Of a DNA stretch of 46,542 bases, positions 10,837-32,221 are shown piece by piece (positions within the stretch are counted from its first letter, which is position 1; every line of letters begins with the position of its first letter). The notes below the pieces were generated by a model. The model searched no databases, had not been told where the DNA came from, and saw only the letters and a list, made by a program, of their open reading frames with translations. Both the position numbers and the translations under genes were made by a program. Where the stretch lies: contig JAADHS010000019.1 of NCBI GenBank assembly GCA_013151745.1, forward strand, positions 1 through 46,542. The letters run 5' to 3'. The DNA comes from Gammaproteobacteria bacterium. Lineage in GTDB: Bacteria > Pseudomonadota > Gammaproteobacteria > JAADHS01.

Positions 10837-13488
10837 CTATTCCTTAGCCAAGGGGCTAAGCTGCTTCAAACGTGCCCGGTACTTTACGGCCTGCTCATGA
10901 TCACCCGCACGCTCTGCTAACTGCCACAATTCCTTTATCGCCCCCTCATGGTCAGCTCGTATTTTTAATATCTGCTGCAATACAACATCACGTTGATATC
11001 CTGCTGCTACGGCTTGCGAAACGGAAGCGTACATACGATCAGCAAGATCGAAGCCAACCCAACGATCTTTTTCATTAGCCGAATAAGCAAAACGTACCAA
11101 ACGCTCTGCTGCTTGATTATCCCCTTGCACTGCCGCAATCCAACTTTTAGTCACCAAACCCACTGCCGCATAAGCACGTTCAAACTGTTCAAACTCTGCA
11201 TCACCGGAAATGCCCAGCTTAACGGCAGCAATCGCAACTGACGGACGATAGTCCAATAAAAACAATAGCAACGAAGCCAAGCTGTAATCTTCACTAAAAC
11301 GTATTTTGGGCAAACGATACTCAATATAAGGTGAGCGCTCCATTTGCATAGCACCTGAACCTAAATCAGGCAATGGCCCATAATATCGACCCAACCAAGT
11401 CCATAAACCTTCGCCACCCGTCATCGCCTGGCGTTTTTGAGCCTCATTCACACCTTCCAAGTAATGTAATAATTTAGCCGTAGCAGAACGCTGCCCAGCA
11501 TAACCCACCAAAGCTAACCTGAACCCATCAAGAAATAACTCTCCCTTTGGGAAAACATGACGAAAAGTTCGCAACACCACCTGCAATGACGCGACATCAA
11601 ACTGATTTAACGCCAACCACTGCACATAAAGCCCATTTTCAGGTGTTAATCGCGCCCGAACACGCTGAAACTGCTCTACTGAAAGTAACGCACTTCGACC
11701 CACCAAATCTGGATGAAACAGGTCACCAATAATCACATCATAGTTTTTTGCATCTCTCTGTAAAAATCGTCGCACATCATCACGAACCACCCTCATCTGC
11801 GAACTCACATCATCATTGACCTGCGTAAACCAATACTTTGCTGCATGAATCGCCCCTGCTGACAGCTCCACCCCAACACGCTCTAATCCAGGAAAGGGCA
11901 ACGAACCTGATGCCGATATACCCGTACCCACGCCCAAAAAAAGCACACTACGAGGATTCCCATGCAACAACAAAGGTAAACGTGCCTGATTTTGCTGCGC
12001 GACAACAGCCGAAGGCTCAGAAGAAGCATCCATACGTTGCAAATCACCTAATAATAATCGTTGACCATCTTGCCGCTCAACAACATGGCTTATCGAAACG
12101 GCATCTTCATAAAAATAGAGATCTCTGGAGGCACCCAAACTATGTGGCAAAAGAACATTGACTTGGGGTAGCATCGCAACGGGAAAAGCCAAGAGCAAGA
12201 GCAACAATAATAAACCAATCAACCTGATACGAGGTGCCGTAACCCAATACATCCCCGCAGTAAACAACAATACCGCAGCAACACAAATAGTCAAAGTCGT
12301 ACCTAAAAGCGGGATCATCACAAAACCCGCCAAACAAGCGCCTAATGCAGCACCTAGCGAATTAACGCCATACAATTTTGCTCCCGCCAACGGCATCGTG
12401 TTTTCCAGATGCCTGGATAATACGGGCAACCACATCCCTAACGCCAAAGTCACAGGCGCGGTCAGTAAAACAATAACTACCCCTTGTGATAATAACGCCG
12501 TAGTCAATGAAGCATATTGCGAAGACTCAACCCAATCGGCTAACCAAGGGATCGCCCACAAACTCAACACGGCAAAAAGACTCGCAAAAACAGGCAATAT
12601 GACCAAGGTATTGCGCAACAACAGCAGGCGCTTCGCCAAAAGGCTACCCACCCCTATACCCAACAAAAACATCGCCAAAATAACCGCCAGTACATATTCA
12701 GTACGCAAAAGTATCATGCCAAACAGACGAGTCCAGGCAATTTCCAGCATCAAAGCTGCAGCACCTACACCCGCATAAGCCAAATAACTCCCCCAATGAC
12801 TAACCTGTCGTACTCCTGTATTTTTTACTACGTCAGAACAATGCACATGGCACTCAACCCGCCGCGACAAAACCAGAAAGGAGACAGCCAAGAAAAAACC
12901 CAGAGCAGCAATACTATAGTTCGCAGCCAACCAACCAACACTAGGCAATAGCGCCAAAGGAATAAGCGCCCCCACCACACCCCCTAACGCATTCACGCCA
13001 TAGATGGTACCCAAACTAATACGACTATTCGATAAAGCACGTAAAATTAATGGAAACCCCATGCCAAGCAATGTCGCTGGCAGCATCAATAAAATCAGCG
13101 CAGCAATAAATTCGTACACATACCAAGTTTTTAACGAGAGGTCTCCGGCACGAAGTAAACCACCAGAAAGGTCAAACAGAAAGGGAATCGCAATTGCAAA
13201 AAGCGCAACACCGGCTTCTAACAAAGCAAGAAGAAAAAGAGGTTGCCAACTCAACCGCCATCGCGCACCGATTAAACTACCTGCGCCCAGCCCCAACATA
13301 AAGGCGGCAACCGTAGCCACGATACCGAAAATACTGACACCAAACTGCAATGCCAACATTCGAGCCCACAAAACCTGATAGGCAAGCGCAGTGACACCCG
13401 ACACGCAATAAAGAGCAACCACCACGCCTGACCAACGACGCATGACTTTATTCATAGATTGAGCACTTTTATGCCACCCAAGCGACAA
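10837..13488 (-). CDS. Membrane-anchored spermidine-synthase-fold protein
   Basis: A protein of up to 883 residues. About 440 residues form 12 or more membrane helices (MFS-like). A spermidine-synthase-like methyltransferase fold follows (about 480-690) with FLGVGTGISAS as the nucleotide-binding loop, an acidic strand end (VGVELSAG), and DVIIGDLFHP as the strand 4 motif. The last 150 residues are helical and TPR-like. This is the known fused MFS/spermidine synthase family, whose substrate is not settled. GVGTG in place of GGGDG means that ordinary aminopropyl transfer is not assured. The upstream codon is TTG; an ATG at about 13455 (MNKVMRRW) is an equally good start. The gene lies downstream of the respiratory genes on the same strand with a 101-base gap. 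Confidence 0.85.
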   Translation of the reverse strand: MSLGWHKSAQSMNKVMRRWSGVVVALYCVSGVTALAYQVLWARMLALQFGVSIFGIVATVAAFMLGLGAGSLIGARWRLSWQPLFLLALLEAGVALFAIAIPFLFDLSGGLLRAGDLSLKTWYVYEFIAALILLMLPATLLGMGFPLILRALSNSRISLGTIYGVNALGGVVGALIPLALLPSVGWLAANYSIAALGFFLAVSFLVLSRRVECHVHCSDVVKNTGVRQVSHWGSYLAYAGVGAAALMLEIAWTRLFGMILLRTEYVLAVILAMFLLGIGVGSLLAKRLLLLRNTLVILPVFASLFAVLSLWAIPWLADWVESSQYASLTTALLSQGVVIVLLTAPVTLALGMWLPVLSRHLENTMPLAGAKLYGVNSLGAALGACLAGFVMIPLLGTTLTICVAAVLLFTAGMYWVTAPRIRLIGLLLLLLLLAFPVAMLPQVNVLLPHSLGASRDLYFYEDAVSISHVVERQDGQRLLLGDLQRMDASSEPSAVVAQQNQARLPLLLHGNPRSVLFLGVGTGISASGSLPFPGLERVGVELSAGAIHAAKYWFTQVNDDVSSQMRVVRDDVRRFLQRDAKNYDVIIGDLFHPDLVGRSALLSVEQFQRVRARLTPENGLYVQWLALNQFDVASLQVVLRTFRHVFPKGELFLDGFRLALVGYAGQRSATAKLLHYLEGVNEAQKRQAMTGGEGLWTWLGRYYGPLPDLGSGAMQMERSPYIEYRLPKIRFSEDYSLASLLLFLLDYRPSVAIAAVKLGISGDAEFEQFERAYAAVGLVTKSWIAAVQGDNQAAERLVRFAYSANEKDRWVGFDLADRMYASVSQAVAAGYQRDVVLQQILKIRADHEGAIKELWQLAERAGDHEQAVKYRARLKQLSPLAKE

Positions 13489-13589: not shown

Positions 13590-13955
13590 TTAAAACGGAT
13601 AAAACCAGACTATCGCCGTTACGGCATGAGCTAAAGACAAAAATACCGTCGCTCCAGCACAAATCATATGAGAAATGTAAAGCTGCTTACCAAATAACGC
13701 CATGCGAATACCGAGTGTGGCTGTGGCTAATATCAAAACAAGAAGCAGAACCCCCATAGTAAACAAAATCTGGCGCTTTTGTTTATCTTCTATTTTGACT
13801 GCTTCACCAGGCTCTTTCAGTACCTCAGTAAAAACCCCAACCACCGCATGATCACTCGAACCGCTATTGAATTCTTGAGCTGAAAGCATGGGCGATAGCG
13901 CAAAAATAGTTACGGTAATAAACAACAAAAAAATAGACTTGATACGGGCACTCAT
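13590..13955 (-). CDS. Small exported or membrane protein in the oxidase-related operon
   Basis: A 121-residue protein when started at ATG 13955 (MSARIKSIFL), which has AAGGAA upstream; the frame is open to a TTG at 13982. A signal peptide (cleavage likely after MLSAQ) is followed by a periplasmic stretch and two membrane helices (ILFTMGVLLLVLILATATLG and the C-terminal AGATVFLSLAHAVTAIVWF). I do not recognise the family. It follows the 14262 gene by about ten bases, so it is probably the last gene of this unit. The role is likely in the respiratory complex encoded here, by context only. Confidence 0.65.
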   Translation of the reverse strand: MSARIKSIFLLFITVTIFALSPMLSAQEFNSGSSDHAVVGVFTEVLKEPGEAVKIEDKQKRQILFTMGVLLLVLILATATLGIRMALFGKQLYISHMICAGATVFLSLAHAVTAIVWFYPF

Positions 13956-13992
13956 ATTTTTATTTTTATTCCTTCGAAACAACTCAACATCT

Positions 13993-14262
13993 TCATCTTT
14001 TACCCCATAACGGGGTTGTTCTATTACGCGCTTCTACCGGTTTTTTGTCTGCCTGCGCTTGTTTAGACTTACCTGCATAACGCCAATGCAAGATCGCCAT
14101 TAATACAATTGGAATCAACACCATCGGTAACAAAAATACAAAAATAGCCCATGGCGTCTCAGGACTCACTCGTAGCCAGCGATAACTATCTGCGGCAAAG
14201 ACCTCTAAAGGCAAAAAAACCAGCCCAACAAACAAATAAATTATTTTTTCCTTGATTTTCAT
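13993..14262 (-). CDS. Small signal-peptide and one-helix membrane protein
   Basis: An 89-residue protein from the ATG at 14262 (MKIKEKIIYLF). This start has GGAG eight bases upstream; an in-frame start at 14271 overlaps the end of the SUMF gene. There is a signal sequence ending near EVFA, a short periplasmic part with the Trp-rich DSYRWLRVSPETPW, one membrane helix (IFVFLLPMVLIPIVLMAIL) and a basic cytoplasmic tail. No family is recognised. Tight spacing with the genes on both sides argues for co-expression. Confidence 0.65.
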   Translation of the reverse strand: MKIKEKIIYLFVGLVFLPLEVFAADSYRWLRVSPETPWAIFVFLLPMVLIPIVLMAILHWRYAGKSKQAQADKKPVEARNRTTPLWGKR

Positions 14263-14267
14263 ATCCA

Positions 14268-15347
14268 TCACTCCACATCATCTGACACACATCTGAAACC
14301 AAAAAAATCCGATGCCATTTGCGGCCAGGCAAAGCCTCGATGATAAGCCGAAGTTGAAAAGGGATCCCCCTTCCAGGAACCACCCCGCATCACCTTGTAT
14401 TGCTCACTTTTCACGGACGCAAACTCCACCATCTTCTTGCCTCGATCACTCGCAGACTGAGGAATTTGCGCTACCTTAACATTAAAAACCTCAGAAGCAG
14501 CCTTACTACCTTGATAAGGCTCAAAATTATCGACCGTCCACTCACTGACATTGCCTGCCATATCCATGACCCCATAAGGACTCGCTCCTTGTGGGAACTG
14601 AGTCACATCTGTCGTCGAGCCTATATTATAATAAGTATTCAAGCGCGCTGGCTCCATCCTGTTGCCCCACGGCCATCGTCGAGCATCTGTTCCGCGAGCA
14701 GCCTTTTCCCACTCCATCTCTGTAGGTAAACGCTTCCCAGCCCACTTAGCATAAGCCGTCGCATTAGCCCAGGAAATCATAATCACAGGATGCAATACTT
14801 TGCCTGGCGGTATCCGCCCATTATCCCATTTTAAAGGGGGCCGATAACCTGTCTCAGCAACAAACAGGGCATATTGCGCATTAGTGATTGGGTATTTATC
14901 TATTTTATAAGCCTTAGTGGTCACCTCATGTTCAGGGCCGTTATAATCATCTGATTTGGGGTTATTTGTACCCATCGTAAAAGATCCGGCAGGAATTGAA
15001 ATCATGGAGTTCACTTCTGCCCATAATTCCGGCGTCAATAATGCGGTGGCACTTTCTACTGTATATGTTTTTATATCCTCTGGACCATATTCATGAATGG
15101 TCTGGCGAAACGTCTCTTCACCTGCAGCGCGATAGTAGGTTTCTTCTTTAGTTAAATCGATATTGGCTCGATTTCGCATATCTAACATACGATTAGAACC
15201 CAGCTCTAGAATATGTATCGTCCCTCCGACCAAGGAAAGCACAATACACGTCACTAAAGTCGCACCTAAATAACTACGACGGCGCGCCATCTGTTCTGCT
15301 GTCAAAGGAGCACGATGCTTAGAATGCATAGACGTTGTCATTACCAC
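14268..15347 (-). CDS. Membrane-anchored SUMF/FGE-fold protein, catalytic cysteines absent
   Basis: A 359-residue protein with one N-terminal membrane helix (about 27-48), a linker of about 70 residues, and a formylglycine-generating-enzyme (SUMF) domain in the periplasm. Typical family pieces are visible: IPAGSFTMGTNN, YPITNAQYALFV, RLPTEMEWEKAARG, DMAGNVSEW, VMRGGSWKG and the closing FFGFRCV. The two catalytic cysteines of true FGE, which lie in the segment just before the last motif, are replaced here (AYHRGFAWPQMASD). So sulfatase activation is unlikely. SUMF proteins such as NirV accompany copper nitrite reductases, and others have binding roles. Here the neighbours are oxidase-related. 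It overlaps the next gene by a few bases. Confidence 0.85.
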   Translation of the reverse strand: MVMTTSMHSKHRAPLTAEQMARRRSYLGATLVTCIVLSLVGGTIHILELGSNRMLDMRNRANIDLTKEETYYRAAGEETFRQTIHEYGPEDIKTYTVESATALLTPELWAEVNSMISIPAGSFTMGTNNPKSDDYNGPEHEVTTKAYKIDKYPITNAQYALFVAETGYRPPLKWDNGRIPPGKVLHPVIMISWANATAYAKWAGKRLPTEMEWEKAARGTDARRWPWGNRMEPARLNTYYNIGSTTDVTQFPQGASPYGVMDMAGNVSEWTVDNFEPYQGSKAASEVFNVKVAQIPQSASDRGKKMVEFASVKSEQYKVMRGGSWKGDPFSTSAYHRGFAWPQMASDFFGFRCVSDDVE

Positions 15348-15457: not shown

Positions 15458-15925
15458 TTAAATACGAGACTGTTTCTGGTATTTTTTATGAAGCTTGCGT
15501 TTGTCTGAGCGGCCATATGTTTTTTTAACCATAACCTCACCAACAATGCCACCAATACCTGCCGCCTCAACAGCAACGATAACGATTAAAATCCAATAGC
15601 CCAGAGGCAACAAACTCACGCCTGCAGGGAGCAAAGCTGGATTGGCAGATAACTCTATATAGGCCATACCATGCACTATTAAAGCCGGAAGATAAGCCAA
15701 TAGTTTACCCCCCAAGCCATAAATCAGTGAAACCACAAAACCACCAACAAAAGGAACCAGAATCAAAGCAACAACCCAAGTCGGATTAAAAGTCGACACA
15801 CCGTAAAATACAGCTAAATTAACACCTAAAAATTGATCTCCAAAGTGGATAACTCCAGCTCCGGCAAAAACAGCAACCGTTGCAAAAAAAACCGCTGTCA
15901 TTTGATATTTTAATTTGTCATTCAC
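15458..15925 (-). CDS. Four-helix membrane protein in the oxidase-related operon
   Basis: A 155-residue protein with about four membrane helices (residues about 8-28, 48-70, 74-93 and 105-127) and a strongly basic C-terminal tail (RSDKRKLHKKYQKQSRI). I do not recognise a family. A start at 15925 gives a sensible N-terminus (MNDKLKYQMTAV). It lies 11 bases after the cytochrome c gene, with 110 bases to the SUMF gene. Context suggests a structural or assembly part of the respiratory complex. Confidence 0.68.
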   Translation of the reverse strand: MNDKLKYQMTAVFFATVAVFAGAGVIHFGDQFLGVNLAVFYGVSTFNPTWVVALILVPFVGGFVVSLIYGLGGKLLAYLPALIVHGMAYIELSANPALLPAGVSLLPLGYWILIVIVAVEAAGIGGIVGEVMVKKTYGRSDKRKLHKKYQKQSRI

Positions 15926-15936
15926 AATAATAACCC

Positions 15937-16434
15937 CTAGTTATCACTCGGTTTATATGTTTTTCCTGTTAGCTTTTCGTATTCCTTTTTTTTCACTTCT
16001 TCCAAATACCAATCTTCTACTTTTAGACTTGCCATATAACTGGCAAGTATTTTTATATCGACTTCATCCAAGTGCGAGTAAGATGGCATCCTGTATTTCA
16101 ATTTCAACCTGGATGGCAGAATTTCTTGTGGGTTTTCAGCAGAAAAATAGTCAAAAAACCAGTCCTCCGTACGCAGTGATCCCAGCCCATCCAATGGCGG
16201 AGAAGGTACGCTCGCCGTCATATCACGTGTTCCCCATAGCGTATGACACTCCCTACACTTCAGATCACGAATCAGCTGAGAAGCTTGTTTCTGCACAGAG
16301 AGATCTGCCGTTGTATAAAACGGAATTCCAGGATCTTCTTCCGTGTCACTCGCAACAATCCACCCCTTGTAGGCGACTAACACCACCGCGAGAGCTGCCA
16401 GAGACGCAAAAAATATTTTTTCACCTTTGCGCAT
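15937..16434 (-). CDS. Membrane-anchored monoheme cytochrome c
   Basis: A 165-residue protein with an uncleaved N-terminal helix (residues about 7-24) that anchors a class I cytochrome c domain facing the periplasm. The heme site is CRECH (residues 60-64). The likely distal ligand is Met116 in YRMPSYSHL, the normal arrangement for this class. It starts inside the last 14 bases of the CcoS-like gene, a tight overlap that implies co-translation. It is a plausible electron donor or subunit for the oxidase encoded at 17294-21192. The similarly built cytochrome at 23500-24090 is from a separate unit. Confidence 0.88.
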   Translation of the reverse strand: MRKGEKIFFASLAALAVVLVAYKGWIVASDTEEDPGIPFYTTADLSVQKQASQLIRDLKCRECHTLWGTRDMTASVPSPPLDGLGSLRTEDWFFDYFSAENPQEILPSRLKLKYRMPSYSHLDEVDIKILASYMASLKVEDWYLEEVKKKEYEKLTGKTYKPSDN

Positions 16435-16708
16435 GTTTAGCAGCTCGTGCTTCTGCTTTTTTCTTAAGCACCTTGCTTCTCAATGCTTCTTGTTCTTCTG
16501 TCACTTTTTTGGCCCGCTGGTAATCTTCATCCGACATTTTATCTTTATCAGTCTCATCAAACACTAAGTATTTTATATCTTCATCAAATTGAAAATTCTT
16601 CACGGCCCATCTCAAGAAAAAACCGGCACCAATCAATATGCCCGCTGCCGCTATGAGCCATACGTAAATCGTCCAGCCGTCAGGTAGACTGTTGAAATAA
16701 TCTGCCAT
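16421..16708 (-). CDS. CcoS-like cbb3 oxidase assembly protein
   Basis: A 95-residue protein. One membrane helix (about 16-36) is followed by RWAVKNFQFDEDIKYLVFDE, which follows the CcoS pattern (a tryptophan-containing end of the helix, then xGQFDD, then LxFDD). CcoS is needed to insert heme and copper cofactors into cbb3-type oxidases. Here the tail is longer than usual, about 40 extra, highly charged residues. The match is by motif only. A CcoS-like gene next to the CcoN-like operon supports a C-family oxidase. It follows the 117-residue protein gene by nine bases. Confidence 0.68.
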   Translation of the reverse strand: MADYFNSLPDGWTIYVWLIAAAGILIGAGFFLRWAVKNFQFDEDIKYLVFDETDKDKMSDEDYQRAKKVTEEQEALRSKVLKKKAEARAAKHAQR

Positions 16709-16717
16709 TATCCTCTC

Positions 16718-17071
16718 CTATAATAAATAACCATCAATCAGTTGCAAATATCCCATCCCTACTGCAATAAAAATACCTGCGATTAATGATCCAAACATAA
16801 TTTTCTCGCCTAATTTCAGACTTCCATTCTTTGGAATATACAGATAAATAATAAATGCAAAGAAAATTAGAGATAAAATTAAAAAAACAAATATACCCTG
16901 ACTATACTTTTGAGATCGTAAACCTTCGATACTCATATCAATACCAAAAAGCATATCTTTTTCCGCTGCAGCAACAATAACTGTATCGCGAATATTGCTA
17001 AGTGTCGCTGCAATCCAATCAGCGGTATATTCAGAATATCGGCCTAACATGGCTTCGCTCACTCTCCTCAC
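16718..17071 (-). CDS. Two-helix membrane protein, first gene of the second oxidase unit
   Basis: A protein of 110 to 117 residues. The frame opens with GTG at 17071; ATG at 17050 (MLGRYSEYTADW) is the more natural start but has its GAGGAG site rather far upstream. An amphipathic N-terminal part of about 55 residues precedes two membrane helices (GIFVFLILSLIFFAFIIYLYI and IMFGSLIAGIFIAVGMGYLQL). The family is not recognised. It begins the unit of small membrane proteins, CcoS-like protein and cytochrome c that follows the terminator at 17188. Confidence 0.65.
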   Translation of the reverse strand: MRRVSEAMLGRYSEYTADWIAATLSNIRDTVIVAAAEKDMLFGIDMSIEGLRSQKYSQGIFVFLILSLIFFAFIIYLYIPKNGSLKLGEKIMFGSLIAGIFIAVGMGYLQLIDGYLL

Positions 17072-17187: not shown

Positions 17188-17217
17188 AAAAAAAAAGCCG
17201 CTCTCAAGAGAGCGGCT
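17188..17217 (-). terminator. Strong terminator closing the heme-copper oxidase operon
   Basis: AGCCGCTCTC (17196-17205) pairs perfectly with GAGAGCGGCT (17208-17217). Read on the minus strand, the stem is followed by a run of T. It stands between the 47-residue microprotein and the next transcription unit, so the two oxidase-related units are separate. Confidence 0.93.
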
Positions 17218-17293
17218 CATGTATTTGATTTTACGGCTTTTTATTATAAATACTTTAACTATACCGCTAATCATGCATCAGGTCTACAACAAC

Positions 17294-17437
17294 CTAGTTA
17301 AACGCATCGTCTGCTTCTTCTTTTTGGTGCTGCTCATAATAAGCATCTACGAAGAAGATACCATATAGAGCAGGTAGAATAACAACAAAAGCAATAATGG
17401 TTGCAAACACCCCAGGTGCATAATCAATATCGAACAT
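17294..17437 (-). CDS. 47-residue single-helix small subunit
   Basis: A short frame with CAGGAGAT six bases before ATG. The peptide MFDIDYAPG is followed by one membrane helix (VFATIIAFVVILPALYGIFF) and an acidic tail (EQHQKEEADDAFN). The layout is that of a CcoQ-type small subunit. It lies 29 bases after the heme-less subunit gene and just before the operon terminator, so it is very probably the last gene of the oxidase operon. Confidence 0.78.
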   Translation of the reverse strand: MFDIDYAPGVFATIIAFVVILPALYGIFFVDAYYEQHQKEEADDAFN

Positions 17438-17466
17438 AATTTATCTCCTGTTTATTTATTATAAAC

Positions 17467-18138
17467 TTACGATGTTTTTGACATGTCGGGCTTACGCGTA
17501 AAACTAGGCAACCGTTTAGTTATTAATATAAGCACAATAAAAAAGTAACTCACATAAAAAAGGTCAATAATCATGCCTTTATCAAACCAAGGTTGCACAC
17601 GTGCAGGTGCGTTTGTTGGCTCACCAAAAAAATCACCGTTCACAGTTCTATTGCCTTCAAAATTAGCCAAGGCAATTTTATCCCCTACGATATTATAAAA
17701 TGCCAAAGGGTACTTTTGTGAAGTTTGCGCTTCACGTATCCCTGGAGCAATATTTTGAAGATCATCCCATGTAATCGGATGACGCTCCAACAAACCAGGA
17801 CCTCGAGGATCCGAAGCTGTGGCCAGTTCTTTCATCGCAAAAGCAGTCAGATACTTCATTTTTTCTTCATCTGTTGCCAGGTTTTGAACCGCTGCGGAGT
17901 CCATCTCATTCACCATTGGGGCATAATGCTCCGCATTGGGTCGCTGCCCCCAAATTGGCATCGTGATCATAAACGCAGTCAAAACGATTAAAGCAATCAG
18001 ATAAGTAAAAGGCAGTGGAAGGCGGTTATTACCCTCCCATAGCCCACCATGTTTTTCTGACTCCCATTGACGAAGCATAGCGGTGGATTCTTCCTCGCTA
18101 GCCATTTCATGTAGTGGTTTATCAAATTTCCAACCCAT
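17467..18138 (-). CDS. Heme-less third subunit with CcoP-like N-terminus
   Basis: A 223-residue protein. Residues about 35-62 (GLWEGNNRLPLPFTYLIALI) follow the pattern of the CcoP N-terminal segment, in which a GxxEYxNPLP motif precedes a membrane helix. A periplasmic section of about 100 residues follows, and then a second helix at the C-terminus (FYVSYFFIVLILITK). There is no CxxCH, whereas CcoP carries two hemes c. It may keep the structural part of CcoP, with electrons entering by other cytochromes. The gene follows the CcoO-like gene by 15 bases. The CcoP link is a short motif match and should be checked with profile searches. Confidence 0.75.
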   Translation of the reverse strand: MGWKFDKPLHEMASEEESTAMLRQWESEKHGGLWEGNNRLPLPFTYLIALIVLTAFMITMPIWGQRPNAEHYAPMVNEMDSAAVQNLATDEEKMKYLTAFAMKELATASDPRGPGLLERHPITWDDLQNIAPGIREAQTSQKYPLAFYNIVGDKIALANFEGNRTVNGDFFGEPTNAPARVQPWFDKGMIIDLFYVSYFFIVLILITKRLPSFTRKPDMSKTS

Positions 18139-18153
18139 CTTTAATTCCCCCTT

Positions 18154-19116
18154 CTATCTTAAGCTCATCAAGACCCAGTCGATCAAAGCCCGCGCTTCCG
18201 ATTCTGGTGCATATTCAGGAACCTCTGGCGGATGAACCGTCTTTCCTGAGACATAATCGTTATACTCGGCACGCCATTTTGAAAAATCGATCGCCTTACC
18301 ATTCGCATCCGTTTTACCCCATAGATAATCGAACCGAGGCATGATCGAGTTTGGCTGAACTAAACGAGGATTAAAAAAGTGCATCGTCATCCATTCTTTA
18401 GATGAGTTACGCGCGGCCACATGCAAAAGATCAGGCGCTTTACGATCAGAACCAAATGCCGTTGGCATTTCACCATTAAAATCGCCCAAGAAAGGAGGCG
18501 TACCAAATACTTGCCAATCCTGAGTATGCTCAGGCAACAAGGTATGACACCACCAACAACCCTCAGTAATGTACACTGTTTTACCACGACCGATCAGATA
18601 TTGACTCTCTGCACCCGCAGTATTCAATACGGCCTCAGCAGTCCAACCATTGTTTACAGTGGCATTATTAACGTAATGCCACTCCTCCCCATCAACATCA
18701 GTTGCTTCGATAGTAAAAACAACCGGATCACTATCGTTAGCTTGATCAATCTTACCTTTTTCGATGCTTAACTTACCTACTGTAGGCCCCATGTTTGAGG
18801 GATGACGTACACCCGCTGACAAAGGCGCCTTAGCATCATAAACGTAAGCACGAATCGGTGGATCAATCGCTTCACCTGTTTTTGGATCTTTATTGAGCAC
18901 GACAGTAGTGGGTTTACCCTCACCGCGAACCAATGGGTCTTCATAACTAAAACCAATAACACGGCCATTCGATAACGTTTTATCTAAACCAACCCACGTT
19001 GATTCACCTGAACGAAAATCGAAGCTGGGGAAAAACAGTGTTATACACATTGATAAACCCAGCATCCCCCCGATGCCAGCCGCCCCTAATTTGTGTTTTT
19101 GAAATTGTCCTGCCAC
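18154..19116 (-). CDS. CcoO-like monoheme cytochrome c subunit II
   Basis: A 320-residue subunit. It has an N-terminal membrane helix (about 11-30), a long extra periplasmic section (about 40-175), and then a cytochrome c domain with CWWCH (residues 187-191) and Met259 in SIMPRF as the distal ligand. The segment from GRGKTVYITEGC to the Met follows CcoO of cbb3 oxidases (GRxxYIxEGCxxCH, GPDL, YNPRxVxPxSxMP). CcoO normally has its heme site soon after the helix, so about 130 residues are inserted. The start was taken as GTG 19116 because GGGAGGAGG lies eight bases before it; the frame is open to 19134. It would pass electrons to subunit I. Confidence 0.85.
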   Translation of the reverse strand: MAGQFQKHKLGAAGIGGMLGLSMCITLFFPSFDFRSGESTWVGLDKTLSNGRVIGFSYEDPLVRGEGKPTTVVLNKDPKTGEAIDPPIRAYVYDAKAPLSAGVRHPSNMGPTVGKLSIEKGKIDQANDSDPVVFTIEATDVDGEEWHYVNNATVNNGWTAEAVLNTAGAESQYLIGRGKTVYITEGCWWCHTLLPEHTQDWQVFGTPPFLGDFNGEMPTAFGSDRKAPDLLHVAARNSSKEWMTMHFFNPRLVQPNSIMPRFDYLWGKTDANGKAIDFSKWRAEYNDYVSGKTVHPPEVPEYAPESEARALIDWVLMSLR

Positions 19117-19266
19117 TTCAAAACCTCCTCCCAATTTCTTTAGCTCCCCCCCCCCGACACAGAGGTCGGAGGGTTTTGAGCCGTTTCCTCCTAATTAAGC
19201 TTCATATTATGTCGCTTAACAGTTGGCATAAGTCTTACTACAGATCAGTTGAATACACTCTTGTTA

Positions 19267-20676
19267 TTAACGTTCGTACGCTAACTCATGAGAATAACGT
19301 CCTTTTGGAAGAACAGTACCTTCACGAGCAGTCATCCACATGTTGTATAACCAGACCAAGTTACCAGTGAACACCATCGTGCCACCCACCCAGCGAGCTA
19401 TCATGTAGGGATGTTCCGCAACAACAACATCAATATAGGGTACTTCGTATACTTTACCTGCACCTTGAATCAACCCAGCAATCGTCATTGAAATCCAGTA
19501 AATACAGAACCCAACGATATAGAACCAGTAATGAAAATTAGCCAAGGCCAAAGAGTAAAGCTTACGACGTAACATTTGCTGAAGACCGAAGTAGACTGCT
19601 GCAATCTCTAGTGCGGTTGACATACCAAGCAGAGCTAAATGCGCATGAGCCACGATCCAACCTGTACCATGGACGTACCAATTAATTGCACGCGTTTGCT
19701 GGAAACCACCTTGCATGTTCAACGGAATAGCCAAAAGCACACCGGTCACAGAGAATTTAATTTCAATATTCTCAACGAACATACTCCATCTACCCTTCAT
19801 GGTAAGAAGAATGTTAGCAACAAACGCAACCGCTGGAATCAAGATTAATACCCCTTCAACAGAAGCAAACGACTTGAGCCATTCCGGCAAAGGAGCTGAC
19901 AGCAAGTGATGCGACGCTGGAGTTGAATAAAAAGCAATGATGGCCCAGAAATGCAAGTGACCTATACGATGAGAGTACAGCGGATTACCTGTCAACTTAG
20001 GTATGGTATAGTAAGCGATCGCAGCTGCAACCGGCGTAATCCATAACCCTAGTACATTGTGAGCAAACCAAAAAGTCAAATAGCCTTCAGTCAAACCAGT
20101 CAAGTTGAACAGTTCTGGCGCCTGACCCACTACAAAAGTGACCATAACCATAAAGGTACACGCACCAAAAAACCAGTTGGTAATATAAATACCTTGCGTG
20201 CGGCGATGAGCAATCGTCATCCATACATTAATACCCAAAGGTAATAACACAGCAACAAGAACAACCAGATCTATCGGCCAAATTAAATCAGAATATTCAC
20301 GACCTGAGGTGATGCCTATCCACAGTAGGAATAGACCTAAGCTCAAACCGATATTCCATAAAAAACAATTCCAAAGACCTAACTTCTCAGACCACAGCTT
20401 GGTATTACCCAAAGCTGGCGTCATGTACATCATGGTCATCGCGAATGCCATTGAAATCCAGCCCAAAATTACCGCTAGAACGTGCACTTGGCGCATATGG
20501 CCAAACGCAAACATTTCTGTACCCGTAACGAAGTCTGGAAACGCCAATTTGGCTGCATTGAAAGAGCCTAAACCCGTTCCAACCACAAACCAAAATATTG
20601 CCGAATATCCGAAGAATATCGTCGCCGAACCTGGCGGGATATCCTCTTCCTTTGCAAACAAAAGTTTCAGTAACAT
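19267..20676 (-). CDS. CcoN-like heme-copper oxidase subunit I
   Basis: A 469-residue subunit with about 12 membrane helices. CcoN features are aligned without large gaps. They are His65 (or His60) for the low-spin heme, GITSGREYSD in place of GITQGKEY, His206 for copper, Tyr250 six residues before the pair His256-His257 for copper, and His344 and His346 for the hemes. The crosslinking Tyr position favours oxygen reduction over NO reduction. Residue 322 is Gln where CcoN has a conserved Glu, and the adjacent NWYVHGTGWIVAHAHLALLG is closer to NorB. The ATG at 20676 has GGAGGAGAGG just upstream; the frame runs open to GTG 20694. Function is inferred: terminal oxidase or a divergent relative. 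Confidence 0.9.
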   Translation of the reverse strand: MLLKLLFAKEEDIPPGSATIFFGYSAIFWFVVGTGLGSFNAAKLAFPDFVTGTEMFAFGHMRQVHVLAVILGWISMAFAMTMMYMTPALGNTKLWSEKLGLWNCFLWNIGLSLGLFLLWIGITSGREYSDLIWPIDLVVLVAVLLPLGINVWMTIAHRRTQGIYITNWFFGACTFMVMVTFVVGQAPELFNLTGLTEGYLTFWFAHNVLGLWITPVAAAIAYYTIPKLTGNPLYSHRIGHLHFWAIIAFYSTPASHHLLSAPLPEWLKSFASVEGVLILIPAVAFVANILLTMKGRWSMFVENIEIKFSVTGVLLAIPLNMQGGFQQTRAINWYVHGTGWIVAHAHLALLGMSTALEIAAVYFGLQQMLRRKLYSLALANFHYWFYIVGFCIYWISMTIAGLIQGAGKVYEVPYIDVVVAEHPYMIARWVGGTMVFTGNLVWLYNMWMTAREGTVLPKGRYSHELAYER

Positions 20677-20753
20677 ATTTTTCCTCTCCTCCACATACTC
20701 GCGAAGCTTATTACTTTAAGACATAGCCCCTAAGCGAACCCCTAAATTATTTC

Positions 20754-20843
20754 TTACTCTTCCATCTTGTTTAGGAGATACCACGAGAACCACATGCTCG
20801 AGAAAGCGAGCGTAATACCACACGCACCAGCAAAAGTTGCCAT
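20754..20843 (-). CDS. 29-residue single-helix microprotein
   Basis: A very short frame with GGGAGGGG eight bases before ATG. The product is MATFAGACGITLAFSSMWFS followed by WYLLNKMEE, a single membrane helix with a short charged end. It sits between the 96-residue gene and the subunit I gene on the same strand, so it is probably translated from the oxidase mRNA and may be a minor subunit. The strong ribosome binding site and its position are the main evidence. Confidence 0.65.
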   Translation of the reverse strand: MATFAGACGITLAFSSMWFSWYLLNKMEE

Positions 20844-20901
20844 CTAGAACCCCTCCCTACTTTTAATTAAGTATAAAAAAATTACCGTACATGCAAAGAC
20901 T

Positions 20902-21192
20902 TTAAAATGCTTTGCTTTCTCCGCGTGCTTCTAATGCACCATGGCGTGACCATGCTAACCAACAAATAATTGTAAATGCTACACCAAAAACCAACATCAT
21001 AACGTCAATGAAGCCTGCAAAAGTGACTGGATTGTAAGCTTCTGCACCCCAACCCCCCCAACTTTCAAAAGGACCTCGCCCAACAGCGCACATTACTGCC
21101 GCCCCAAACACAGAGCCGTTACCCATTCCAGTCGTAAACGCTGGAATAATCCCGGCCATAAAGGTATTACCGATACTTAACTTATTTGTCAT
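20902..21192 (-). CDS. 96-residue two-helix membrane protein, first gene of the oxidase operon
   Basis: A 96-residue protein begun at ATG 21192 (MTNKLSIGNT), which has GGGGAGGG five bases upstream; the frame is open to 21207. A glycine-rich N-terminal helix (about 11-40, with GIIPAFTTGMGNGSVFGAAV) is followed by a loop with GRGPFESWGGWGAEAYNP and a second helix (GFIDVMMLVFGVAFTIICWL). No family is recognised. It heads the operon that contains the CcoN-like subunit and is a candidate accessory subunit. Confidence 0.72.
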   Translation of the reverse strand: MTNKLSIGNTFMAGIIPAFTTGMGNGSVFGAAVMCAVGRGPFESWGGWGAEAYNPVTFAGFIDVMMLVFGVAFTIICWLAWSRHGALEARGESKAF

Positions 21193-21719: not shown

Positions 21720-21959
21720 ATGAAAGAAGGTTTAAAAGAAATTTTACTCTACGGGCTGGTCTCAATAAGCTCTCTCTGTATACTCGCTTACACAGTCCAT
21801 ATGTTTGTTGGGGGTCTAGTCGAAAAAGAAACAGAGCAGCTCATCATGGGCGGCGTTGTACTAACGGCAGCAGCAGCTATGATTTTCATGGTCAGAGACG
21901 TGCTGAAAGTACGCCGCAACAAGCTAGACAATCACACAAACGAACAGCAGTTAAAATAA
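21720..21959 (+). CDS. Two-helix membrane protein, divergent from the oxidase operon
   Basis: A 79-residue protein. Two hydrophobic segments (LLYGLVSISSLCILAYTVHM and LIMGGVVLTAAAAMIFMV) are followed by a basic, then polar tail (KVRRNKLDNHTNEQQ). The start ATG has GCAGGA upstream. No family is recognised. It is the only plus-strand gene in the respiratory island and faces the converging gene at 21992. Confidence 0.6.
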   Translation: MKEGLKEILLYGLVSISSLCILAYTVHMFVGGLVEKETEQLIMGGVVLTAAAAMIFMVRDVLKVRRNKLDNHTNEQQLK

Positions 21960-21991: not shown

Positions 21992-22447
21992 TCACCCATA
22001 AACTCTTAAAAAGTCGCGCATATCTTTAAACTCCGCTTCACTTTCAAACTGCCCTTTATGAAATACGAACTGTTGCTTTTTACCCCTTAAGTCAAACCCC
22101 GTTAACGCAAAGCTTTTTCCGACCATATCCGGAAAATACCTTACCCCTTTAACCAGTTCAGAAGTCAAGCCACTGCGTAATTGCAGCGCAACACGCTGTT
22201 TATTAGCATCAATAGAGATGGCGGATGAAGGTAACATCATCATGCGCGTCTTAAGAATCCGGTTGGCTCCCGTCAAAAAAAAGAACGTGGCCATAAATAC
22301 GATAGGATATGCCCAGTTTCTATCTGACGTGTACCACATCTGAAAGCCAATCGACAATAAAAAAACGACAGTTGGCACATACAATGCCAAGTCCCACCAC
22401 ATCCCTTTTTTATCTTGTACCAAGACACTCTTTTTTTCTTTTGCCAT
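21992..22447 (-). CDS. Two-helix membrane protein with soluble C-terminal domain
   Basis: A 151-residue protein. A basic N-terminus (MAKEKKSVLVQDKKG) precedes two helices (LALYVPTVVFLLSIGFQMW and PIVFMATFFFLTGANRIL). A soluble domain of about 85 residues, mostly strands (SISIDANKQRVALQL, FALTGFDLRGKKQQFVF) and similar in feel to small PH-like domains, follows. I do not recognise the family. It is the last gene of the unit that includes the half oxidase subunit, 23 bases after the thioredoxin-fold gene. Confidence 0.65.
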   Translation of the reverse strand: MAKEKKSVLVQDKKGMWWDLALYVPTVVFLLSIGFQMWYTSDRNWAYPIVFMATFFFLTGANRILKTRMMMLPSSAISIDANKQRVALQLRSGLTSELVKGVRYFPDMVGKSFALTGFDLRGKKQQFVFHKGQFESEAEFKDMRDFLRVYG

Positions 22448-22470: not shown

Positions 22471-22992
22471 TTAACCCTGCTCTATATCTGCAGCCAACGC
22501 ACTGTCTATAACCGTAGTCAACTCATTATAAAGCATGCGCCCCGCACGCTTAAACTGGACCACCCGATCCGCACCAATAACAAAAGTCCAAGGATCTCCG
22601 CGCACATCAAACGAAATAAATGCTTCTGGATTATAATATTGATCCATATGAATGAATAACACCTCATCTTCATACTTTGTCATCAATGCTTTCAACATCT
22701 GTAACTGTTTATCACATACGGTACAATGCCCCGGCGTTGCAAACTCAACTAAAATAGGCTTTCCCATCGCCAGCGCATCTTTAATAGAGTGCTGATACAT
22801 CCGCTCATCAGGATAGCGATAACTGGTAATCCGACTAAAATCGCCCCCCACATCAGCCAGGGTTTTTGTTTCAATTTCCGGTGCAATTGCACCCACTTTT
22901 AAAACGCCATCAGGCGGTAACAAACACCCAACAGTTAAAAACAGACAGCTAACAACCACCCACAACCGCACATCAACAGCATTTCTAGACAT
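22471..22992 (-). CDS. Thioredoxin-fold lipoprotein
   Basis: A 173-residue protein. The lipobox LTVGC places a lipidated Cys at residue 23. The mature part has a thioredoxin fold with the redox motif CTVC (residues 90-93) within FATPGHCTVCDKQ, and the cis-Pro region DPWTFVI. The motif is CxxC, not the CxxxC of SCO copper chaperones, so a thiol reductase role (heme c maturation or copper-site care) is more likely than copper delivery. It overlaps the half-oxidase gene by 8 bases, indicating coupled translation. Confidence 0.82.
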   Translation of the reverse strand: MSRNAVDVRLWVVVSCLFLTVGCLLPPDGVLKVGAIAPEIETKTLADVGGDFSRITSYRYPDERMYQHSIKDALAMGKPILVEFATPGHCTVCDKQLQMLKALMTKYEDEVLFIHMDQYYNPEAFISFDVRGDPWTFVIGADRVVQFKRAGRMLYNELTTVIDSALAADIEQG

Positions 22993-23500
22993 TACTCTTC
23001 TCCCAACCTTTACATGTGCGAAATATATTAAACGCCCATATAAAATTTGCTAACAAAACTAACGTACCAAATAGTCCCATAGTCGCCAATAAAGGCGCAA
23101 CCACGGCCTCAGCGGATTGCCCTTCAGCCACAGTACTGCCTGCCACACCCGCAATTGTAAAAAACACCACCATACCAATCAAACCAACATTATGCACCCA
23201 AAAGTGAACCTTCACCAAGGTCAAACTGAATATAGGACGCTGTACTATTCTTGGAATAATATAATAAACCGATGCAAAAATAGCCATTTCAACCCAGCCC
23301 AGCAAGTTAACGTGGGTATGCGCCCTGACGATCAAGCGGCCATGCGAAGTATGATCAACAAAGTGACGAAATTCCGCTATTCCCCCCATCATTGCTCCCC
23401 ATGAAAAGCCGATGATACTGTAAATAACACAGGCATAGACAAACCAAAGCATATAACGCCGATAAACGATTTCTTGAGGGTGCTCCCACGATTTACTCAT
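22985..23500 (-). CDS. Half-size heme-copper oxidase subunit I homologue
   Basis: A 171-residue membrane protein with four helices. Its segment RAHTHVNLLGWVEMAIFASV, with His61 and His63, and the later VHFWVHNVGL match helices X to XII of CcoN, in which HVHxGALGW carries the two heme histidines and a HFWLATxG helix follows. The copper-binding helices (VI and VII) are absent. It could bind one or two hemes between subunits, or regulate. The start overlaps the end of the cytochrome gene (ATGA). A complete subunit I lies in the other oxidase operon, so this is not simply a truncation of it. Confidence 0.8.
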   Translation of the reverse strand: MSKSWEHPQEIVYRRYMLWFVYACVIYSIIGFSWGAMMGGIAEFRHFVDHTSHGRLIVRAHTHVNLLGWVEMAIFASVYYIIPRIVQRPIFSLTLVKVHFWVHNVGLIGMVVFFTIAGVAGSTVAEGQSAEAVVAPLLATMGLFGTLVLLANFIWAFNIFRTCKGWEKSNV

Positions 23501-24090
23501 TATGGCGCAGCCTCACTATTACTTTCCTGATCCTTTTCGCGGATATCTTCAAACCTTTCTTTCCAGTCTGCAGGCGCCCATGATTTAACCATATTATCAA
23601 CAAATTCTGATCGCTCTGGCGGTGGCACCTTCGCTACCGATGACCCCGCGACGGCTTTTAAGTCGGACAAAAATACGGCCAACAAACGCCTCTCTTCCGC
23701 AGGGAGCCTTTCGACAAACTGAGCTTCTTTTCGCGGGCCATGATCAATCGTAACCGCGCCATAAACCGCTTCTGGATTAGTCAAAAATGCCTCTAACCGG
23801 GCAGCATCATATTTTGAGCCAATCCCGTCTAGAATCAAGCCCATGCTGGTACCCATGCGCATCGCTCGATGGCAAGCATTACAATTATATTTCTTATAGA
23901 GTGTGTGGCCTAACTTTCCATCTTCAGATAAGTTAAAAAATGTTGTTTGCACAAACATCGGCTTATCTGAGGTTAACCGTACTGCCTCAAGCACAACATA
24001 GCCAATCATAGCTAACACAAAAAATGCGCCAAAAACGGTCAATAAAATTTTTTCACCAGACTTTAAAGGTTGTTTTTTCATTGTCTTCAA
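23500..24090 (-). CDS. Membrane-anchored cytochrome c (NorC/FixP-like layout)
   Basis: A 196-residue protein. One N-terminal helix (about 15-36) is followed by a periplasmic domain. The heme site is CNACH (residues 70-74), and no obvious Met-Pro distal ligand motif follows, so the sixth ligand is unclear. The anchor plus single heme and the gene order (cytochrome, then oxidase-I-like) resemble norC-norB, but the second gene here is only half of an oxidase subunit. A charged tail (EDIREKDQESNSEAAP) is present. Confidence 0.85.
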   Translation of the reverse strand: MKTMKKQPLKSGEKILLTVFGAFFVLAMIGYVVLEAVRLTSDKPMFVQTTFFNLSEDGKLGHTLYKKYNCNACHRAMRMGTSMGLILDGIGSKYDAARLEAFLTNPEAVYGAVTIDHGPRKEAQFVERLPAEERRLLAVFLSDLKAVAGSSVAKVPPPERSEFVDNMVKSWAPADWKERFEDIREKDQESNSEAAP

Positions 24091-24234: not shown

Positions 24235-24963
24235 CTATTGATCATAAGGTGTATAAAAATTACCATCAGAGTACGGGCTTGCATTAGTCAGATAGGTAGC
24301 TGCATTTTTAATATCATCATCTGACATTTTTTGGGCAACTTTTTGCATTTGACTCATTGGATCATTTGTTCTCGTACCATCACGCCAGCTTTTCAGCTGA
24401 TTCACCAAATAAGTATAACGCTGCAGACCAATAATGGGATAAACCGGTGGCGCGCCCCGACCTGCATAGCCATGACAGGATTTACATGCAGATAGCTCAG
24501 GACTACCGAATTCCACAAGCCCTTTACCAAAATGCGACTTCCCAACTTCCGTACCGCCTTCAGCAACGGCCTTAAGATCTGACCCTTTAAAATCTATTTT
24601 CTTTTGCGCCAGATAGGTTGCAACGTCACGACGATCCTGCTTGCTTAAACCTTTCGCATTCGCATTCATAACAAACATCGTATTATCTGTACGCGCATCA
24701 GATGCATAGTCCTCAAGTTGCTTCAGTAAAAAACTAAACCACTGACCCGACAAACGAGGTGTAGCCAAATTGTCATCGCCACTCCCATCCGCACCATGAC
24801 ATGAGTTACATGCCGGTACATCTCCCTTACCGTTTTCAAAAATACTCTGCCCACTAGCAACGTTACCATCACCTTTTGGAAATTGTGCAGCCGCTATCGC
24901 GACAGTTGTAAACACACCTGTTACAAGCGCTACAACCGACACTGAAATCAAATACTTACGCAT
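24235..24963 (-). CDS. Diheme cytochrome c4-like protein
   Basis: A 242-residue periplasmic protein when started at ATG 24963, which has GGGAGGGGG seven bases upstream; the frame is open to 24996. A signal peptide (cleaved near AIAAA) is followed by two class I cytochrome domains with CNSCHG (52-57) and CKSCHG (160-165). GADGSG after the first site and GRGAPP after the second fit the c4 family, a periplasmic electron carrier to terminal oxidases. It has its own terminator, so it may be made in larger amounts than the unit downstream. Confidence 0.9.
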   Translation of the reverse strand: MRKYLISVSVVALVTGVFTTVAIAAAQFPKGDGNVASGQSIFENGKGDVPACNSCHGADGSGDDNLATPRLSGQWFSFLLKQLEDYASDARTDNTMFVMNANAKGLSKQDRRDVATYLAQKKIDFKGSDLKAVAEGGTEVGKSHFGKGLVEFGSPELSACKSCHGYAGRGAPPVYPIIGLQRYTYLVNQLKSWRDGTRTNDPMSQMQKVAQKMSDDDIKNAATYLTNASPYSDGNFYTPYDQ

Positions 24964-25170
24964 TTCAAGACCCCCTCCCGAATTAAAATTCCCCAAACTA
25001 CCAACTCAAACAAAACGGCTTTTTTACTAAACGAGCTTCAAAATGAAACCGTCTAAATTACCGATTGCTATGCACTAGCCTTTTTCTGGCAGCACAACGA
25101 TGTCAATAGATTTTCCTCCCATCCTCTCGAAAGAGATGATGTTTTTTTTCAACATTTCATTTTTAATAAA

Positions 25171-30871: not shown

Positions 30872-32221
30872 CTAAACCAAATATAACGAAGCCAGCCCTA
30901 AGAAAACAAAAAAACCCACGGCATCGGTCACTGCGGTCAATAATACTGAGCCGCCTAATGCGGGATCGGCACCCAGTCGGCTCATGACCAAGGGAATCGT
31001 CGCTCCGGCAAAAGCACCGACAAGCAAATTAATAATAATCGCCAAAGCAATAACCAGACCCAGGTTGTGATCTTCAAACCAGAACACGGCGATGGCGGCG
31101 ATGACAATGGACCATAACAAGCCATTCATCAGACCAACGCACAATTCTTTTGACATCAGCTTGAGCGCATTGGATTGACCAATTTGGCCTAAGGCCATCC
31201 CCCGTACGACGATGGTTAATGTCTGGCTGCCCGCAATCCCCCCCATGCTCGCCACAATGGGCATCAATACCGCCAAAGCAACCAGCCGTTCAATGGTGGT
31301 TTCAAATAGGCCAATGACCCAGGACGCCACTAATACGGTCAGCAAATTAACCCCTAGCCAGATTCCGCGCCGTCGTGCCGTCACGGTAACGGGGCCAAAC
31401 ACATCGGCTTCTTCCTGCACACCCGATAAATTCATGAGTGATTGATCCGCTTCATCCCGAATCACATCGACGACATCATCAATGGTAATACGCCCGACTA
31501 ACTTCCCTGCTGCATCGACAACAGGCGCAGAAACTAAATCCCGGTGTTCAAACATAACCGCAACGTCAGTGTCTAAATCGGTCACTTGAATCACGGATGA
31601 CGTCGTCATCATCACATCGGCCACTTGTTGTTGTGGCAATTTAATCAATAAATCTGTAATTAGTAATAATCCAAAATAGCGATCATCCCGGTCAACAACA
31701 ATCAGACTATCGGTCATATCGGGCACACTGCCCCGTAAGCGCAAGTATCTTAAAACCACATCCAGAGACACATCAGGGCGAACCGTCACGGCATCAGTAT
31801 TCATTAGACCACCGGCGGTATCTTCCGGGTAAGACAACACCGATTCCAGGCGGCGTCGATCCTGAAAGTCCATGGATTGTAATAATTCCGTCGTAACAGA
31901 GTCAGGCAAATCGGGCAAAATATCTGCCAAATCATCTGTTTCTAGATGTCCTGTTGCGATAATGAGCTCTGCATGCTGCATCTCGCGAATAAAATCAGCC
32001 CGCAAGTCATCATTCACTTCGAGCAGGACATCCCCGCCCTGATCAGGTTCCACCATGCTCCACGCAATATTTCTTTCGTTTGCTGGCAAGGACTCCAGGA
32101 GCAAGGCAATTTCTGCTGAATGTAATTCTTTAAGCTGCACACGAGCTGAGTTATAGTCTTTCGTGTGCAGTTTTTTACGAAATATCTTTAGGCGTTTTTG
32201 ACTCTTTTCATTTTCAATCAT
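30872..32221 (-). CDS. mgtE: Magnesium transporter MgtE
   Basis: A 449-residue Mg2+ channel protein. An N-terminal superhelical domain (about 1-130, with LPDLPDSVTTELLQSMD) is followed by two CBS domains (about 130-255) that sense Mg2+, the connecting helix, and five C-terminal membrane helices with the pore region (VLMPIVASMGGIAGSQT, TIPLVMSRLGADPALGGSV). The start ATG lies inside the end of ptsI (overlap 8 bases), so the gene is at the end of the PTS operon. The same order with ptsI is known in other proteobacteria. Confidence 0.96.
   Translation of the reverse strand: MIENEKSQKRLKIFRKKLHTKDYNSARVQLKELHSAEIALLLESLPANERNIAWSMVEPDQGGDVLLEVNDDLRADFIREMQHAELIIATGHLETDDLADILPDLPDSVTTELLQSMDFQDRRRLESVLSYPEDTAGGLMNTDAVTVRPDVSLDVVLRYLRLRGSVPDMTDSLIVVDRDDRYFGLLLITDLLIKLPQQQVADVMMTTSSVIQVTDLDTDVAVMFEHRDLVSAPVVDAAGKLVGRITIDDVVDVIRDEADQSLMNLSGVQEEADVFGPVTVTARRRGIWLGVNLLTVLVASWVIGLFETTIERLVALAVLMPIVASMGGIAGSQTLTIVVRGMALGQIGQSNALKLMSKELCVGLMNGLLWSIVIAAIAVFWFEDHNLGLVIALAIIINLLVGAFAGATIPLVMSRLGADPALGGSVLLTAVTDAVGFFVFLGLASLYLV

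Follow-up and report, generated by a model that had tools for sequence, protein, structure and literature searches.

What does an oxidase reduce when its subunit I resembles CcoN and the rest of its operon is not ccoNOQP? The question is raised by six genes on the minus strand, between positions 21192 and 17294 of a 46,542-nucleotide stretch of DNA (the window) from a Gammaproteobacteria bacterium (GenBank assembly GCA_013151745.1, contig JAADHS010000019.1). An earlier note on this DNA had read them as a divergent C-family heme-copper oxidase, which could be of a new class or act on another gas. Judging from homology, an invariant active site, gene order and the lack of any other full-length heme-copper oxidase in several genomes, we consider it highly probable that these genes specify the core of a C-family (cbb3) terminal O2 reductase belonging to a separate clade.

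The operon opens with a gene for a 96-aa membrane protein with the motif TGMGNGSVF (20902–21192), which lies immediately 5' of the second gene in 82 of 88 loci. This second gene, kept in 83 of the 88, encodes a 29-aa membrane peptide (20754–20843), possibly a small subunit. Subunit I (19267–20676, 469 aa), subunit II (18154–19134) and subunit III (17467–18138) come next, and a 47-aa single-TM protein (17294–17437), found 3' of subunit III in 80 loci, closes the unit. The 96-, 29- and 47-aa reading frames are the three small membrane proteins that had been listed beforehand. The strong terminator described with them is also there: on the same strand and 3' of the operon (17188–17218), it has a stem of 10 pairs at 17218–17195 and a T tract. 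All six genes occur in the same order in 73 of the 88 loci examined, a set in which contig ends truncate many loci; the operon is therefore more than a chance arrangement. hhalign gave no link between CcoQ and either the 47-aa or the 29-aa peptide, a comparison that is difficult with proteins this short.

Subunit I belongs to the COX1 family (Pfam PF00115, E 9e-74) and its best solved relatives are the CcoN chains of cbb3 oxidases, with about 30% identity (for example to P. stutzeri 3mk7); against ccoN it scores 222 bits, where the cut-off is 583. Its ATG at 20676 agrees with the starts of the orthologs and has a good Shine-Dalgarno sequence, in line with the ribosome binding sites claimed for the operon; the alternative start, GTG 20694, overlaps that sequence. 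Counted from the ATG, all six CcoN residues named in the earlier note (His206, Tyr250, His256, His257, His344 and His346) are present and were correctly numbered; in the reading frame that starts at the GTG they are H212, Y256, H262, H263, H350 and H352. These six and H71 are invariant in 97 members of the family, giving the six His ligands and the cross-linking Tyr at its C-family position. Because every catalytic residue, including this Tyr, is invariant, the active site is, as far as its residues tell, of the oxygen-reductase type.

The two larger partners of subunit I also derive from the cbb3 family. Subunit II, a CcoO-like protein with one TM helix, matches FixO (E 2.7e-16) and ccoO (hhalign, 98%), and carries one heme c site, a single CxxCH (CWWCH) at residue 193. 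The long insertion attributed to it is real: about 120 extra residues separate the TM helix from the heme domain, which begins at residue 183, compared with residue 55 in P. stutzeri CcoO. Its true start is probably a GTG near 19116. Subunit III has no CxxCH, as had been observed, but it is not new in kind. It consists of an N-terminal TM domain derived from CcoP/FixP, then a helical region in the periplasm that carries no heme, and another TM helix. The protein of the window has no Pfam match of its own, but 6 of 13 orthologs match FixP_N (best E 3.9e-4), and its hhalign score with CcoP is 43.4, when all reversed and non-cytochrome controls score 27 or less; in the profile alignment, GGxxExNNxLP of subunit III is paired with DGIEEYDNPLP of CcoP. 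Because of the FixP_N matches and of a CcoP score above the controls, we read subunit III as a CcoP remnant, comprising the FixP_N domain, from which the diheme part is gone. A fold search with the predicted models of subunits II and III (pLDDT 60 and 69) returned nothing (best E 0.37 and 5.2).

The family departs from cbb3 in the proton channel as well. In P. stutzeri numbering, Y223, N289 and T293 are retained, whereas S240 is Gly in 96 of the 97 members and Y317 is Ala in all of them; in 24 ccoN controls, S240 is kept in 23 and Y317 in every one. We take S240 and Y317 to line the K-type proton channel of the C family (cbb3) and to be needed for proton uptake. Two further positions, Y237 and I241, are His (H242 and H246) in 97/97 members. 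With both S240 and Y317 replaced, activity or pumping may differ from that of cbb3.

Beyond the terminator, a second conserved unit follows on the same strand. It opens with a 117-aa two-TM protein (16718–17071; 79/88 loci) and continues with a CcoS/FixS-like maturation protein (16421–16708), whose match to FixS (E 0.0021) is below the Pfam cut-off and which has a nearly invariant QFDEDI motif; a membrane-anchored monoheme cytochrome c (15937–16434; Cytochrom_C E 2.8e-5); a four-TM protein conserved in 75 loci (15458–15925); a TM-anchored protein of the FGE/SUMF1 fold (14268–15347; FGE-sulfatase E 1.1e-55); a TM protein with a conserved DSYR (13993–14271; 75 loci); and a 130-aa two-TM protein (13590–13982). 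In the latter, H105 and H119 are invariant (75/75) and stand 14 residues apart (H-x13-H) within a single TM helix; diheme b cytochromes show a similar spacing, and the two His are possible heme b ligands. The last gene of the cluster, 3' of the 130-aa gene in 70 loci, encodes a multi-TM protein with a spermidine-synthase-like domain (10837–13488; Spermine_synth E 2.3e-6). In the FGE-fold protein, none of the orthologs shown has a Cys in the segment where we presume the two FGE catalytic Cys to lie; a nearly invariant Cys34 is found in its TM helix. In one locus (L062) the two units are in swapped order, with the second unit 5' of the core, a hint that each unit can move independently of the other.

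On the other side of the core, a conserved two-TM protein is encoded on the plus strand (21720–21959), always opposite to the rest. The remaining upstream genes are again on the minus strand: a conserved membrane protein (21992–22447; 57 loci); a thioredoxin/TlpA-like protein (22471–22992; Thioredoxin E 1.3e-5) with a conserved HCxxC, Cys90 and Cys93 being kept in 62 of 64, which is a candidate copper or heme assembly factor; a half-length CcoN-like protein of 171 aa (22985–23500) that matches the C-terminal part of COX1 (E 9.6e-15) and has an HxH heme-ligand motif, H61 and H63, invariant in 60/60; a second membrane-anchored monoheme cytochrome c (23500–24090; Cytochrom_C E 3e-5); and a periplasmic diheme cytochrome c of the c4/Cyc1 type (24235–24996; two CxxCH; Cytochrom_C E 9e-15). 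This diheme cytochrome, which aligns with the diheme part of CcoP (hhalign, 99.9%), is the probable electron donor. Between the genes of the 96-aa and the 130-aa protein, both included, 13 genes are contiguous in 64 of the 88 loci, and the full set of 19 is so in 37, many loci being cut by contig ends.

The half-length CcoN has a second copy. In nearly every genome searched with COX1 we found the full subunit I and two short proteins, mostly of 170–220 aa, that match just the C-terminal part of COX1. One is in the cluster (22985–23500), and the other lies elsewhere or about 11–13 kb beyond subunit I; in the genome of the window it is on a different contig (C215, L003:1450–1998), and both copies of this genome retain the HxH ligands. 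Our guess is that these proteins handle heme during assembly. The FGE-fold and half-CcoN proteins occur practically nowhere else than in genomes with subunit I: the three genes are found together in 37 of the 49 genomes that have any of them, and the 12 exceptions are drafts with a completeness of at most 93%.

Could the whole cluster then encode one supercomplex? In this extension of the preferred reading, which does not exclude it, the oxidase would be joined to a second membrane module (17071 down to 13590) that, with its cytochrome c and possible heme-b protein, would take electrons from periplasmic cytochromes and couple forward and reverse flow. The contiguity of the 13 genes speaks for it, as do the invariant H-x13-H of the 130-aa protein, the restriction of the FGE-fold and half-CcoN genes to genomes with subunit I, incomplete drafts aside, and the nitrite oxidizers among the named carriers. 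However, a terminator lies between the two units, their order can be swapped and many of the genes may be assembly factors, and we hold the supercomplex to be possible but rather doubtful. The same tentative standing applies to its fullest version, in which the products of up to 19 genes would form a distinct respiratory supercomplex serving donors of high potential (nitrite, Fe(II)). It would combine a C-family oxidase whose proton path has been rebuilt (H242/H246 for S240/Y317), a CcoP devoid of hemes, the second membrane module, to which a cytochrome c and the possible heme-b protein belong, and two half-CcoN proteins carrying or delivering heme.

Distribution and phylogeny bear on the preferred reading, a C-family O2 reductase of a separate clade. 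We found 71 loci with 76–92% identity in gamma- and betaproteobacterial genomes, including several Candidatus Nitrotoga, Gallionellales, Nitrosomonadales and marine and groundwater MAGs. Within the phylum, 42 of 399 genomes carry the family, with 64–100% identity and a gap down to about 33%. Nearly all of these 42 carriers are outside the class Gammaproteobacteria (our groups f40, f60 and f73), and we infer that they are Zetaproteobacteria, on grounds that include the two ccoN forms present and the literature. No plasmid-borne or viral copies of the subunit I family were found. In two trees, where the NORs were cNOR and qNOR only and the ccoN came from this phylum, the 97 aligned sequences form their own clade, outside ordinary ccoN (ccoNOP) and separate also from the ccoN-ccoO-cytochrome c sequences, some of which come from named plasmids. 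The C family, including the subunit I family, is separated from the cNOR/qNOR outgroup with 100/100 support. Within the sampled C family the subunit I family is placed as the first branch (91/74 for the rest), with long branches; the data neither support nor reject its union with the ccoN-ccoO-cytochrome c sequences in one clade (p-AU 0.21). The tree and gene-order comparison proposed in the earlier note thus speaks for its view of a divergent C-family oxidase that is not ccoNOQP: subunit I clusters outside ordinary ccoN, and in its relatives no ccoQP genes lie next to it.

An alternative would be a cbb3 oxidase of the ordinary kind, with nothing more than a rearranged operon and differences due to neutral drift. 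The two share a great deal: the fold of subunit I, all the heme and CuB ligands and the cross-linked Tyr, the channel residues Y223, N289 and T293, a monoheme CcoO subunit with its FixO domain, FixP_N in subunit III and a FixS-like protein nearby. Against this stand several differences: (i) the family is a clade of its own, on a stem of 1.2–1.4 substitutions per site; (ii) S240G, Y317A, Y237H and I241H are fixed family-wide; (iii) the hemes of CcoP have been lost; and (iv) this cluster contains many extra genes, which are strictly conserved. Further departures from ccoNOQP are the insert of subunit II and the lack of a recognisable CcoQ. We consider drift from an ordinary ccoNOQP oxidase unlikely.

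The weightiest evidence on function comes from genomes that offer few or no other candidates for the work. In six Candidatus Nitrotoga genomes subunit I is the only full-length heme-copper oxidase; CydA was not found in five of them (N. fabula, HW29, LAW, M5 and BS), while one CydA is present in the sixth (SPKER). This oxidase is also the only one in another seven genomes whose completeness is 91% or more (G419, G418, G080, G084, G116, G156 and G164), although genome drafts can hide a second one. Nitrotoga, which oxidize nitrite aerobically and are available in culture, have been predicted to possess one cbb3-type complex IV (PMC6050957). By elimination, since it is the sole oxidase of aerobic Nitrotoga and of the seven further genomes, the enzyme would reduce O2, and in Nitrotoga it seems to serve as the terminal oxidase of aerobic nitrite oxidation. 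The genome of the window likewise has subunit I as its only full-length heme-copper oxidase, but it also encodes one CydA, so the enzyme is not its only possible oxidase. This genome encodes RuBisCO and an ActB-like protein and fits a chemolithoautotroph with reverse electron flow. Nitrite oxidation by an NXR was considered for it and rejected: its three molybdopterin matches (726–742 aa), which we take to be an assimilatory-type reductase, NuoG and the ActB-like protein, are not NXR-sized.

Subunit I has its heme-copper superfamily fold, its HxH and its CuB His in common with cNOR and qNOR. An NO reductase, or an enzyme for another gas, on a C-family fold would be favoured by the deep branch near the base of the sampled C family, by changes in the usual proton-channel residues of the kind expected where no cytoplasmic protons are taken up, and by the ability of cbb3 oxidases to reduce NO slowly. 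We reject this reading as very improbable, since the cross-linking Tyr is invariant in 97/97 members, when known NORs have Glu, Asn, Gln or Asp in its place (PMC8756737), the C-family clade contains neither cNOR nor qNOR, and aerobic Nitrotoga would be left with no heme-copper or bd oxidase. The suggestion of another gas is accordingly not supported, and the operon encodes a C-family O2 reductase that is real and well conserved, branches deeply and has unusual subunits.

How might this O2 reductase work? Electrons whose first source is a donor such as nitrite or Fe(II) would enter through the periplasmic cytochromes (the diheme protein at 24235–24996 and the anchored monoheme proteins at 23500–24090 and 15937–16434) and would pass through the single heme c of subunit II to heme b and on to heme b3/CuB in subunit I, the site at which O2 would be reduced to water. 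Subunit III, having lost its diheme part, would have kept its N-terminal TM domain as a structural piece. Cytoplasmic protons would arrive by a K-type path without S240 and Y317, in whose place H242 and H246 may serve, and the neighbouring genes would provide maturation factors or further subunits.

Has this enzyme been seen before? Papers on iron oxidizers distinguish, after Ducluzeau et al. 2008, proximal and distal cbb3 oxidases that differ in subunit composition, and use the term 'distal cbb3' for Zetaproteobacteria, Gallionellaceae and Sideroxydans ES-1 (PMC7029218, PMC10734462, PMC8788666). Our family occurs in the same kinds of organisms and its subunit make-up is also unlike the proximal form; its accessory gene set, in contrast, is not described for the distal enzyme in the literature accessible here. 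The family is very probably the 'distal cbb3' of iron oxidizers, a match made by taxa and by the separate clade rather than by sequence. In Ferrovum JA12 an oxidase with subunits I and II only has been described, subunit III being missing and two co-localised c cytochromes having been suggested in its place (PMC4725956), the same pattern as in this cluster; and complex IV-2 of Tenderia is among the most expressed genes of that organism. Some or all of the Ferrovum JA12 oxidase, Tenderia complex IV-2 and distal cbb3 are very probably the same enzyme as ours. In addition, the diheme cytochrome adjoining the core resembles Cyc1, which in iron oxidizers has been tied to their cbb3 cluster (PMC8788666, PMC5513912). 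The idea of a new oxidase class holds, then, as regards the separate clade and the subunits of its own, but not as regards discovery, the distal cbb3, very probably this enzyme, being already known. The ccoN-ccoO-cytochrome c oxidases (Paraburkholderia, Azoarcus plasmids) are also C-family enzymes with no ccoP adjoining ccoNO, but they belong to a separate clade, and four chromosomal representatives (L105–L108) are in the ccoN set that keeps S240 (23/24) and Y317 (24/24).

In the literature accessible here, outside of which are many subscription papers, we found no account of a heme-less CcoP, of the changed channel residues, of half-CcoN proteins or of the full cluster. New here are the heme-less CcoP, the fixed replacement of S240 and Y317 together with two invariant His, the conservation of a gene cluster with up to 19 members and the two half-CcoN proteins. 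By the distal cbb3 literature, the enzyme appears to be behind much neutrophilic iron oxidation too. Its O2 affinity has been assumed from cbb3 enzymes that have other subunits and another proton path, and the ecological view that these groups respire with 'high affinity' depends on it. A working oxidase in which S240 and Y317 are lost throughout the family is a natural test of how protons move in the C family. New candidate subunits or assembly factors of the oxidase are offered by the half-CcoN and FGE-fold genes, in a cluster most of whose accessory parts have never been studied. Further out, the flanks are ordinary: the window contains a glutamyl/glutaminyl-tRNA synthetase gene (5028–6695) on one side and, on the other, MgtE and PTS enzyme I-like genes (30872–33950) and a sigma-54 (RpoN) gene (37386–38906) with its neighbouring genes.
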